Below the pieces are notes generated by a model. That model was not told the origin of the DNA and made no database searches. It worked only from the letters and a program-made list of their open reading frames with translations. From Bacteroidales bacterium (GTDB lineage: Bacteria > Bacteroidota > Bacteroidia > Bacteroidales > Dysgonomonadaceae): DNA of 55,434 nt. The stretch lies in NCBI GenBank assembly GCA_012838585.1, contig DUPB01000167.1:1-55434 (forward strand). Direction: 5' to 3'. This document shows positions 6,052 through 9,468 of this stretch, one piece after another. The translations under genes and the position numbers were made by a program. How positions within the stretch are numbered: the stretch's first letter is position 1; every line of letters starts with the position of its first letter.

Positions 6052-7470
6052 TTAGGGCCTGAACTCCTGCTCCAGATTCTGTTCGCGGTGTACGAGGGAG
6101 ACCTTTACCTTAAAATGGTTGGCGATATGTTCGGCAACCCGTTGCGCGGCGTAAACCGAACGGTGTTGCCCGCCGGTACACCCGAAGGAGACCATCAGGT
6201 CGGTAAACCCACGGTCGATGTAGCGTTGCACGTGCCGGTCAACGAGGGGGTAGATATTGTCTAGGAATGCTGTTATCTCGCCCTCCTCCTCCAAAAACTT
6301 GATGACCGGTTCATCCAGGCCATTCACGTTGTTATATCGTTCAAATTTGCCGGGGTTGTTGATGGCGCGACAGTCGAACACGTACCCCCCACCATTGCCG
6401 GAGGTATCGTTGGGTATCCCCTTCTTGTAGGCGAAGCTGAAAACACGCACCTCTAGCGTTCGTTTACGGGTATCGGCGAACTGTTTTAGTTCCGCCATTT
6501 CGGTTAAAACCTCGTGGAGGTAGGGATATTCCTTGAACCCCTTTTTAAGCAGATCCCTGAGATTGTTCAGGGCGAACGGGATGCTCTGGATGAAGTGCGG
6601 TTTCTTTTCAAAGTAACCCCTGAAGCCGTATGCCCCCAATACCTGTAACGTGCGGAATAGGACAAACAGCTGCAACTGCTCCTTGAAAGCGGTTTCGTTC
6701 ACTGGCATCCATTTTTGAAGCGACCGGATGTAGGTTTGGGTCAGCTCATCACGCAGCTCATTGGGGAAGTTGGCTTTCGCTTGCCACAAGAACGATGCCA
6801 CGTCGTAGTAGACCGGCCCTTTTCGCCCCCCCTGGAAATCGATGAAGTAGGGTGTTCCATCCACCAGCATCACGTTACGCGATTGAAAATCGCGGTAGAG
6901 GAAGGTCTCCGTCTGCTCTTGCAAGAGCTGTTCCGTCAGCCGCTCGAAATCATCCTCCAGGAGGTCTTCCCTGAAGTCCATGCCGGTAGTTTTCAGGAAG
7001 TTGTACTTGAAGTAGTTGAGGTCCCAATGGATTGAACGCCGGTCGAACTCCGGTAAGGGGTAGCAGACGTTAAAATCGAGCCCCTCTGCACCCTTTACCT
7101 GAAAGTCGGCCAGCAGTTCGATGGTCTTATGCAGCATCTTTTTTTCATCGTGGCTAAATACCCCGGTTAGCCTTCCCCCTCTTATGGCATCAAACAGGAT
7201 GGTATCGCCCAGATCCTGTTGGATGTAAAACATCTCATCATGCGAGACAGACAGCACCTCGGGTACATGTAATTCCTTCTCGCGGAAATGACGAGCCAGC
7301 CGGATAAAGGCGCGGTTCTCGTCTCGTGACTCCCCCCGAACACCAATCAGGGAGACCCCATCGCTTGAAAGACGATAATACTTTCGGTTAGAGCCGGATG
7401 AAGGCAAAGCTTCCAGCTTAGGGTTGGCTTTGCCTGTCTGCCGGGTAAAAAGGGTGATCAGTTGCCTCAT
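6052..7470 (-). CDS. AmgK-like sugar kinase fused to a RapZ C-terminal domain
   Basis: 472 residues with two domains. Residues about 1-335 are an aminoglycoside/choline-kinase fold: SSGSNRKYYRL loop, QQDLGD, YRDFQSRNVML (catalytic D194, N199) and YFIDFQGG (metal Asp D211). This matches AmgK, the anomeric kinase that makes MurNAc/GlcNAc-1-phosphate. Residues about 338-472 match the RapZ C-terminal domain, with FGCTGGQHRSVY (429-440) and VSLVHREQN; that domain binds glucosamine-6-phosphate in E. coli RapZ. The RapZ N-terminal P-loop domain is absent, so calling the gene RapZ would mislead. The MurU-like gene follows after 61 bp. Kinase plus amino-sugar-phosphate sensor is the inferred role. Confidence 0.82.
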   Translation of the reverse strand: MRQLITLFTRQTGKANPKLEALPSSGSNRKYYRLSSDGVSLIGVRGESRDENRAFIRLARHFREKELHVPEVLSVSHDEMFYIQQDLGDTILFDAIRGGRLTGVFSHDEKKMLHKTIELLADFQVKGAEGLDFNVCYPLPEFDRRSIHWDLNYFKYNFLKTTGMDFREDLLEDDFERLTEQLLQEQTETFLYRDFQSRNVMLVDGTPYFIDFQGGRKGPVYYDVASFLWQAKANFPNELRDELTQTYIRSLQKWMPVNETAFKEQLQLFVLFRTLQVLGAYGFRGYFEKKPHFIQSIPFALNNLRDLLKKGFKEYPYLHEVLTEMAELKQFADTRKRTLEVRVFSFAYKKGIPNDTSGNGGGYVFDCRAINNPGKFERYNNVNGLDEPVIKFLEEEGEITAFLDNIYPLVDRHVQRYIDRGFTDLMVSFGCTGGQHRSVYAAQRVAEHIANHFKVKVSLVHREQNLEQEFRP

Positions 7471-7533: not shown

Positions 7534-9468
7534 TCAGGTATTCAATCCTTCTAACCAGAGGGAAGGTGACGCGTCGCTCGGCATGAGCCAGCTGCCCCGG
7601 GGCGAAAGGTTTACTGAGCCCACTTTGGGCCCATCAGGCAGGCAAGAGCGTTTGAACTGCTGCGCGAAGAAGCGCTGGTAAAATAGCTTCAGCCATTTCT
7701 CTATCTCCTTGGAGTTGTACCTCCCGGCGAATGCCTGTTCGGCTAAGAAATGGGTACGCGCAGGGGTATCGCCATACCGCAACACGCGGTGCAGAAAGAA
7801 GTCGTGCAACTCGTAGGGACCCACGAACTGTTCGGTCTCCTGGGCGATGGAGCCATCCCCCTTGGCTGGTAGTAGCTCGGGACTGAATGGGGTGTCCAGG
7901 ATGTCGTGCAGGACGCTTCTTGTGCCCTCTTCGGCGCGGTTATCCGCTAGCCAGAGAACCAGCGTGGCGACCAGTGTTTTGGGTACACCCGTGTTGACGG
8001 CGTACATCGACATGTGGTCACCGTTGTAGGTGGTCCAGCCCAGGGCCAGCTCCGACATGTTACCGGTGCCGATAACCAGTCCCCCTACCCTGTTCGCGTA
8101 GTCCATCAATATTTGCGTCCGCTCCCTGGCCTGGCTGTTTTCATAGGTCACATCGTGGTTGTTGCCGTCATGTCCAATATCCTTGAAGTGTTGCGATACA
8201 GCATCGTTGATGGGGATCTCCTTGATGGTGACGCCGATCTCCCTCATCAAGGCCATCCCGTTGTTGAAGGTGCGCCGGGTCGTGCCAAAGCCCGGCATGG
8301 TGATGCCGTGGATATTTTCCCGGGGGAGCCCCAGCCGATCGAACGTGTTGGCCACCACCAGCAGCGCCAGCGTGGAGTCTAACCCCCCTGAGATGCCGAT
8401 GACCGCTTGTTGTATATTGGTATGAACCAGCCGTTTTGCCAGGCCGTGCGTTTGAATGGCAAACAGCTCGGAGAGACGTGCGTCGCGCTCTTCCGCGGGA
8501 GGGATAAAGGGGTGTGGGTTAAACGACCGGTGCGTCGTTGCCGGGGAGATGGTATCGAGGTGGCAGTCAACCTCTATCAAATCGTCCGTTGCTTCGGTTG
8601 TGAAGTGGTGACTATTTAGCCGGTCGTGTCGCAACGCCTCCACGTCGATGTCGGCTATGATCAGTTCGCTATCGAGCGAGAAGCGGGGCGATTCGGCAAG
8701 GAGGATGCCGTTCTCCGCGATGAGGCAGTCGCCCGAGAAAACCAGGTCGGTCGTCGATTCGCCAAACCCGGCCGAAGCGTAGATGTAGGCTGCATGGCAA
8801 CGGGCCGATTGTTGCTTGACGAGCGCTTTTCGGTAGTCGTGTTTGCCCACCAGCTCGTTGCTCGCCGATAGGTTGAAGATAAGCTCCGCCCCTTGCATGG
8901 CCAATTCCGACGAGGGGGGCACCGGTGCCCAGAGCTCTTCACCGATCTCCACGCCAAAGTGGGCGAACGGGGTTCGGAAAATCATCCCGCCGGGAGAGAC
9001 CGGTACATCCTCTCCCGCGATCTCCATCGTGCAGCATTCGAGGTGTTTACCCAAAGTGAACCAGCGGTTTCCGGGAGAGCCGTCGCGGCTGGAGGGGGAA
9101 CCCTTGGGCACCATGCCCAAGATACCTTCGGCAGATACCACGGCTGCCACGTTGTAGAGGCTGTTTTGGATGCGCAGGGGAAGTCCGACCAACACGATAG
9201 GGGAAGCACCGCTTTCTCCACGCTTCAGGAAAAGTGATAGCTCGGATAACGCCTCCAACGCTTTATCCTGCAGCACCCGTTGTAAGAACAGGTCGCCGCA
9301 GCTGGAGGCGGTGAGGCAGAGCTCGGGAAAGCAGAGGAGCTGCACCTCCTCTTGCCGTGCCCGCTCGATCACCTCTTTTATCTCGGCCACGTTGTGCCCG
9401 CAATCGGCTACCTTGAGCTTGGGCGATGCCGCACCCACGCGAAGGAACCCGTGCCTGTTTATCTCCAT
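7534..9468 (-). CDS. nadE: NAD+ synthetase with degenerate glutaminase domain
   Basis: 644-residue two-domain NadE that converts deamido-NAD to NAD with ATP. Residues 1-290 are a nitrilase-type glutaminase domain and about 320-644 the synthetase domain, with the ATP P-loop GISGGLDST and the TGNMSELALGWTTYNGDH block. Of the nitrilase triad, Glu (E49) and Lys (K122) are present, but the nucleophile position in the usual EICED motif reads EIGEE: codon 8941-8943 is GGT, Gly176. The loop after K122, normally close to LPNYxEFYE, is replaced by an unrelated Ser/Gly/Pro sequence at the same length. The enzyme is therefore probably ammonia-dependent. The start at 9468 matches the family N-terminus (GFLRVGAA). 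Confidence 0.93.
   Translation of the reverse strand: MEINRHGFLRVGAASPKLKVADCGHNVAEIKEVIERARQEEVQLLCFPELCLTASSCGDLFLQRVLQDKALEALSELSLFLKRGESGASPIVLVGLPLRIQNSLYNVAAVVSAEGILGMVPKGSPSSRDGSPGNRWFTLGKHLECCTMEIAGEDVPVSPGGMIFRTPFAHFGVEIGEELWAPVPPSSELAMQGAELIFNLSASNELVGKHDYRKALVKQQSARCHAAYIYASAGFGESTTDLVFSGDCLIAENGILLAESPRFSLDSELIIADIDVEALRHDRLNSHHFTTEATDDLIEVDCHLDTISPATTHRSFNPHPFIPPAEERDARLSELFAIQTHGLAKRLVHTNIQQAVIGISGGLDSTLALLVVANTFDRLGLPRENIHGITMPGFGTTRRTFNNGMALMREIGVTIKEIPINDAVSQHFKDIGHDGNNHDVTYENSQARERTQILMDYANRVGGLVIGTGNMSELALGWTTYNGDHMSMYAVNTGVPKTLVATLVLWLADNRAEEGTRSVLHDILDTPFSPELLPAKGDGSIAQETEQFVGPYELHDFFLHRVLRYGDTPARTHFLAEQAFAGRYNSKEIEKWLKLFYQRFFAQQFKRSCLPDGPKVGSVNLSPRGSWLMPSDASPSLWLEGLNT

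Follow-up and report, generated by a model that had tools for sequence, protein, structure and literature searches.

Background

NAD synthetase (NadE) is described as a two-domain enzyme, in which a glutaminase (CN-hydrolase) domain is fused to the synthetase domain (type F), and as a single-domain enzyme (type N). According to the parts of PMC6946656 drawn on here, the two-domain enzyme takes free ammonia as well as glutamine. In the Mycobacterium tuberculosis protein, the same parts describe a YRE loop (Tyr127-Glu132) that contacts glutamine, regulates the tunnel and communicates with the synthetase site, a hydrogen bond from Tyr58 to the second Glu, and a contact between Glu129 and Lys644 at constriction 2A (PMC6946656). 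Single-domain NadE uses ammonia in vivo, as was shown for that of Salmonella; for amidotransferases that depend on glutamine, the glutaminase is usually said to be needed because free cellular ammonia is low (PMC3376133, in the portion drawn on here).

The window is the whole stretch of DNA that was analysed (55,434 nucleotides; contig DUPB01000167.1 of assembly GCA_012838585.1, a Bacteroidales bacterium of the Dysgonomonadaceae). Judged from sequence comparison, its nadE gene very probably encodes a pseudo-glutaminase NadE fed by free ammonia, as part of a switch, made more than once, by which NAD and GMP synthesis came to draw on ammonia instead of glutamine. The protein represents a variant of an enzyme already known rather than a system of a new kind. 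No report of a natural nucleophile loss in a two-domain NadE, or of its joint loss with that of GMP synthetase (GuaA), was found in open-licence literature (titles and starts of abstracts; most subscription papers lie outside this scope).

The nadE gene and its product

The features of the locus are given in Table 1. The query NadE scores far above the curated cut-off of the whole-protein model NF002730 (473 bits), and PF00795 and PF02540 both match above cut-off, the CN-hydrolase being fused to the NAD_synthase domain. Whole-protein score and domain fusion both place it in the two-domain family (NF002730/PRK02628). Among solved structures, M. tuberculosis NadE is the closest in both sequence and fold (TM-score 0.87, 39% identity; the query model was aligned to 6ofc over 675 alignment columns).

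Table 1. Features of the nadE locus. Positions are those of the window; residues are numbered in the query NadE unless stated otherwise.
Feature	Position	Strand	Evidence
nadE ORF, two-domain NAD(+) synthetase, 644 aa	7534..9468 (including stop)	-	ORF list; NF002730 805.5 bits
CN-hydrolase (glutaminase) domain, N-terminal, residues 1-290, predicted dead	8599..9468	-	PF00795 58 bits
Synthetase domain, C-terminal, residues 325-644	7537..8496	-	PF02540 103 bits
PP-loop SGGLDST, intact, residues 360-366	8371..8391	-	sequence/alignment
Gly176 (GGT), nucleophile Cys position	8941..8943	-	alignment; codon read (8943-8941)
Degenerate YRE loop, residues 123-134, Glu130 and Glu133 lost	9067..9102	-	alignment
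Tyr55 to Ser (Tyr58 of M. tuberculosis NadE)	9304..9306	-	Tyr in 158/158 comparison rows
Lys122, catalytic, kept	9103..9105	-	alignment
Glu49, catalytic, kept	9322..9324	-	alignment
Asp626 to Ser, Arg628 to Leu	7585..7593	-	Arg628 in 156/158 comparison rows
RapZ-like/phosphotransferase ORF, neighbour of nadE (name by own reading)	6052..7470	-	9/9 loci

Active-site and interface residues

Full-length comparison NadE rows number 158 (8 further rows, 7 without the nucleophile and 1 partly eroded, were set aside beforehand). The nucleophile column holds Cys in all of them. The query has Gly at the position aligned with Cys176 of M. tuberculosis NadE, and its EICED motif reads EIGEE; the Cys-Glu-Lys triad is incomplete, Glu49 and Lys122 being present. 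The residues that follow Lys122 are GSPSSRDGSPGN, a stretch of the same length as the usual loop, with the conserved RWF next to it. Glu130 and Glu133 of this loop (Glu129 and Glu132 of M. tuberculosis NadE) are both Gly, so that the second Glu is lost together with its partner, Tyr55. Near-invariant positions are changed at 4 of 45 in the glutaminase domain (Tyr55, Glu130, Cys176, Asp178); each of the four lies in the active site or the loop and is changed in both sister species too.

The synthetase domain is changed at 1 of 115 near-invariant positions, Arg628. Counted along the alignment, Asp626 and Arg628 correspond to Asp656 and Arg658 of M. tuberculosis NadE, which we take to be tunnel/interface residues that matter for coupling. 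Lys615 (Lys644 of M. tuberculosis NadE) is kept; the pair equivalent to Glu129-Lys644 has lost its first member, Glu130, and retains its second. The SGGxDST PP-loop and the conserved positions of the domain are those expected of an active NAD synthetase.

The earlier note on this DNA, made from the letters alone, had claimed that the catalytic Cys is gone (Gly176, codon GGT), that the loop after Lys122 is replaced at equal length and that the synthetase P-loop is intact. All three statements are borne out by the codon as read and by the alignment. Its phrase that the domain is dead at two sites holds for the losses named (nucleophile and loop) and understates their count, Tyr55, Asp626 and Arg628 being lost too.

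Because the nucleophile is Gly and the YRE loop and interface are decayed, the query NadE is predicted to be unable to open glutamine, and would have no glutaminase activity. Residual activity through another nucleophile or activated water is highly improbable: Glu49 and Lys122 remain, and Cys51 and Cys57 lie in the same segment as Glu49, but both Cys also occur in intact relatives, away from the nucleophile position, and the second Glu and Tyr55 are lost.

Inheritance in the query clade

NadE was found in 91 of 101 genomes of the family; the nucleophile site was read in 89 of these 91 (G065 and G097, with partial matches, were left out). The query clade comprises G000 (the query), G080 and G072 (NadE rows L003-L005). 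The earlier note had named orthologues from sister genomes as a check. Both sister NadE (L004, L005), each 88% identical to the query, have Gly at the nucleophile (codons GGT and GGC) and altered loops; L005 keeps Glu133 and has Lys at 177. The RapZ-like ORF adjoins nadE in 9 of 9 loci, nucleophile-lost and intact alike, which indicates that the query nadE is a vertical orthologue.

Since Gly is found in two sister species with GGT and GGC, Gly176 is ascribed neither to chance nor to a sequencing error and is, by these comparisons, a real, inherited state. The chance that a sequencing error, contamination or a decaying pseudogene accounts for it is negligible. The query genome is a draft assembly of 278 contigs, which could favour such an artefact; against this, three separate assemblies have Gly and their codons for it differ synonymously, gene order is conserved, the frame is open, dN/dS is low in both domains and no other NAD synthetase was found. 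This last search covered the contigs of the query genome. Its weak second PF02540 match (contig C113) was considered as a second NAD synthetase and rejected: it is GuaA.

Recurrence of nucleophile loss

The synthetase-domain tree includes 170 NadE rows (L233, a further, badly eroded case, is left out). The nucleophile is missing in 10 of them, which takes 8 changes; well-supported branches force at least 6 of these. The rows concerned are the query clade, L169 and L144 (same family), L097 and L107 (Bacteroidaceae metagenome-assembled genomes from water-buffalo colon and sheep rectum), and L230, L231 and L232 (other families of the order). By origin, the replacement residue is Gly in 6 of 8 cases and Gln in 2 (codons read). 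With Gly taken as one among eight outcomes that a single step can reach, P = 9e-5 for at least 6 Gly in 8; this null is rough, as it takes account of neither mutation bias nor later changes.

L144 and L230 have Gly with a near-usual loop (L144 is changed at 613, 615 and 626; L230 has Arg for Trp180). The glutaminase domain is more eroded in L169, L107, L231 and L232. This difference suggests that Cys-to-Gly comes early and loop decay later. Position 628 is other than Arg in 8 of 10 nucleophile-lost rows (L144 and L230 keep Arg) versus 2 of 154 others, 6 of the 170 rows being dropped for want of a readable C-terminal motif. The independent-pair test gave 4 well-supported pairs and none in the opposite direction; with so few pairs, it could not reach significance.

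Searches beyond the family are of two kinds. A DNA-pattern survey across the order found the intact NadE motif in just 88 of 392 genomes and is for this reason uninformative on loss. A protein search of 28 hand-picked genomes gave a two-domain match in 6 (picked cases, not a rate): the nucleophile is lost in G400, G367, G283 and G258 and intact in G388, and G424 has Cys in a 350-aa frame.

Related frames were also recorded. L134 (NadE of G004) keeps Cys, has lost Tyr55, Glu130 and Glu177, and occurs with an intact GuaA motif; it is possibly a loss by another route. In G258, the glutaminase half of NadE is badly eroded, and a separate 284-aa CN-hydrolase frame (L235; G258:C14:6488-7243) resembles the NadE glutaminase domain and has Gly at the nucleophile. 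In G024, a 240-aa ORF (L191:3223-3945) consists of the NadE glutaminase domain alone with EICED intact; a full NadE is found elsewhere in that genome.

Selection on and structure of the glutaminase domain

Within the three-species clade, dN/dS is 0.12-0.16 for the glutaminase half and 0.06-0.08 for the synthetase half: purifying selection still acts on the dead domain. The ratio of dN between the halves (glutaminase/synthetase) is 1.68-1.95 in the clade and spans 0.37-3.33 in 64 intact pairs. As 17 of these 64 reach 1.68 or more, relaxation of the glutaminase half is mild.

Across the whole protein, the AlphaFold model of the query NadE has a mean pLDDT of 83; most of the glutaminase domain is modelled with confidence. 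The YRE-loop region scores 63 (residues 121-130) and 72 (131-140) in the query, versus 85 and 95 in an intact control (its own residues 121-130 and 131-140, offset by about 7 from the query); this may be taken as a weak hint of loop change. Low confidence in the C-terminal loop (605-630) is uninformative because it is seen in the intact control too.

Selection and model fit a pseudo-glutaminase that is kept as a structural part, and the domain may have a role in oligomer assembly. Alternatively, it may have been repurposed as a sensor or scaffold (one that, for example, still tunes the synthetase upon binding glutamine or glutamate), the ammonia supply being secondary. The full length of the domain and the selection on it would agree with such a function, as would the retention of Glu49 and Lys122 and of a domain of similar length in more eroded relatives. 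A purely structural role accounts for retention as well, however, and separate lineages have lost the loop contact residues and Tyr55 in parallel but by different changes, so that decay fits better than a shared new ligand. Repurposing is considered unlikely.

Damage to GMP synthetase

GuaA is damaged alongside NadE. The class-I GATase half of the protein is collapsed in G000, G080 and G072, with 159 residues versus 186 in an intact relative: a conserved start of about 52 residues and a low-complexity insert of about 40 are present, and about 70 residues are missing between the nucleophile segment and His-Glu. The Pfam GATase match covers just the first 56-57 model positions. The nucleophile position holds Ser in G072 and, by sequence, in G080 (alignment ambiguous). 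The Cys of G000 GuaA may survive (AVCPARQ, versus GICYGAQ); the case for a dead glutaminase in this genome is made by the loss of about 70 of 186 residues and not by the Cys. In G096 and G045, GuaA reads AIGYGAQ, a Cys-to-Gly change (GGC and GGA) that leaves His and Glu in place.

A scan for the intact GuaA motif matched 88 of the 101 family genomes (87 code GICYGAQ and G034 codes GICYGTQ, by eye). Only seven of the matching genomes (G004, G042, G053, G051, G054, G064 and G078) were aligned as GuaA; the motif is intact in these alignments. Among the 62 high-quality genomes (at least 90% complete, at most 5% contaminated), 59 show the motif. The remaining three are G000, G080 and G072, which are also the sole NadE-dead ones of the 62; all 59 high-quality genomes with the NadE Cys show it. 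The GuaA glutaminase is collapsed or Cys-to-Gly in 5 of the 5 NadE-dead family genomes, the motif being intact in none. The other 84 family genomes read include five without a motif match (G070, G018, G029, G043 and G100), all less than 90% complete.

Of 5 evaluable NadE-dead genomes outside the family, 3 (G367, G283 and that of L097) yielded no GuaA other than a glutaminase-reduced one. In G367 and the L097 genome, it is a short form without the Cys segment (that of L097 starts near a contig end). In G283, it is synthetase-sized (332 aa); one match to the GuaA Cys motif lies somewhere in this genome and may or may not be due to chance. Two GuaA copies, one intact and one synthetase-sized, are present in G258; G400 has a Cys-to-Gly NadE but only an intact GuaA. 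The L107 genome yielded only a 47-aa GuaA fragment, and no GuaA was found in G424. GuaA is intact in 10 of 10 comparison genomes with an intact NadE motif. Co-loss of the two glutaminases is not universal. The GuaA pair test included 86 rows, 8 of them GuaA-lost and all 8 NadE-lost; the informative pairs run in the same direction and 4 are supported, too few to reach significance.

In G196 and G347, two of the ten comparison genomes with an intact NadE motif, a short GuaA without the GATase Cys segment is adjacent to a full GuaA (L240/L252 in G347; L241/L253 in G196). These short copies are a possible reservoir of ammonia-type GuaA.

Model-based annotation is misleading here. GuaA with a collapsed GATase (L192:3384-4910 (-)) still reaches 598 bits (cut-off 400) with the model named glutamine-hydrolyzing GMP synthase; the N-terminal domain model fails on the same protein (46 versus 172 bits).

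Other glutaminases and the supply of nitrogen

The PyrG proteins of G000, G080, G072 and G096 retain GICLGMQ and FHPE; the PurF Cys is present in G000, G080 and G096. A generalised loss of glutaminases was rejected on these grounds. Glutamine synthetase was found in 17 of the 18 genomes searched, including the query. The exception, G096 (100% complete, 6% contamination), has no PF00120 (glutamine synthetase) match and is Cys-to-Gly in NadE and GuaA. Given the glutamine synthetase and the kept nucleophiles of PyrG and PurF, glutamine is probably still made and used in the cells of the query. As donor, it would have been abandoned just for the two PP-loop adenylating synthetases read, NadE and GuaA.

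Besides PyrG and the GuaA remnant, no class-I GATase was found above cut-off in G000, G080 and G072, so no separate GuaA glutaminase subunit is evident. By the same result, CarA, TrpG and HisH seem to be missing from these three genomes, which hints at auxotrophies.

Nitrogen could also be delivered in trans, another CN-hydrolase docking on the dead domain or on the synthetase as in the two-subunit Thermus system. A candidate exists: a GNAT-CN_hydrolase fusion of 507 aa (L185:2848-4371 (-), L186 and L187) is common to the three Cys-less genomes, 99-99.8% identical in protein, and is absent from the CN_hydrolase matches of 6 of the 9 other genomes searched (G064, G087, G053, G054, G061 and G078). 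However, none of the genome's CN-hydrolases was matched by the query glutaminase domain at E 1e-3. The glutaminase domain of an intact relative matched a 299-aa CN-hydrolase at about 26% and did not match the fusion; this 299-aa protein adjoins an ORF that resembles an agmatine deiminase (own reading). Arg628 and Asp626 have decayed alongside the active site, which does not suit delivery in trans, nor does the lack of a stand-alone class-I GATase above cut-off for GuaA in G000. Such delivery is very unlikely. The other CN-hydrolases of the query genome were rejected as a NadE glutaminase: they are not NadE-like, and the extra one of the three genomes is the GNAT fusion.

The earlier note had proposed ammonia-dependent NAD synthesis, and this is the reading that the sequences best support, with a clade-wide loss of Cys, losses in loop and interface, no second synthetase found, and a wrecked GuaA glutaminase. 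The glutaminase domain of NadE would persist as a folded part that can no longer open glutamine. The synthetase domain would adenylate NaAD, and free ammonia from solution would attack the intermediate; as two-domain NadE accepts ammonia and single-domain NadE uses it in vivo, this ordinary adenylation followed by ammonia attack is the most likely course. The query NadE would then use ammonia in vivo. With the GuaA glutaminase wrecked in the same lineage, GMP synthesis would also have moved from channelled glutamine nitrogen to free ammonia, and the switch would have been repeated in several Bacteroidales lineages. An ammonia-rich niche, with ammonia plentiful enough, may be the reason for the losses; the lifestyle of an amino-acid-fermenting anaerobe is plausible for the family.

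Significance

A wider proposal is put forward tentatively, its chances being rated slightly short of even. Several Bacteroidales lineages would independently have given up channelled nitrogen from glutamine in two glutaminases at once, that of NadE (nitrilase-type) and the non-homologous one of GuaA (class-I), each of which serves a PP-loop adenylating synthetase, PyrG and PurF being untouched where read, and the first step in NadE would often have been Cys-to-Gly. The combined state of NadE and GuaA would be a genomic marker of lastingly high internal ammonia. The recurrent Gly may be selected, either by relieved backbone strain at the nucleophile turn or as an ammonia inlet into the old tunnel.

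Nature has repeatedly damaged two unrelated glutaminases and left the synthetases intact, which amounts to a natural experiment on the conditions under which free ammonia is enough. From it come a genomic predictor, open to test, of ammonia-rich physiology in bacteria of the gut and of digesters, and naturally uncoupled enzymes for the study of ammonia tunnels.

Comparison with known systems

M. tuberculosis NadE (3DLA/6OFC; type F NADS) shares with the query its full length, domain order, PP-loop and the Glu and Lys of the triad. It differs by its Cys, which is Gly in the query, and by the YRE loop and the residues Tyr58, Glu132, Arg658 and Asp656, the equivalents of which are lost in the query.

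The laboratory C176A mutant of the same enzyme (3SDB, 3SEZ, 3SZG) is replaced at the same residue and has the same fold. The change in the query is natural, is common to three species and is accompanied by decay of the loop and interface.

Single-domain NadE (type N; Escherichia coli, Salmonella) resembles the query in the use of free ammonia in vivo, which is predicted for the latter. The query is two-domain, with a glutaminase domain present at full length; unlike in type N, its use of ammonia would be a secondary reversion with the dead domain retained.

Archaeal GuaA has a two-subunit form. In this split form, as in the short GuaA copies, the GATase function is missing from the ATP-pyrophosphatase protein, a feature common to the query lineage. 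There, in contrast, the fused GATase has collapsed in place or is Cys-to-Gly (G096 and G045), and G000 has no stand-alone partner above cut-off.
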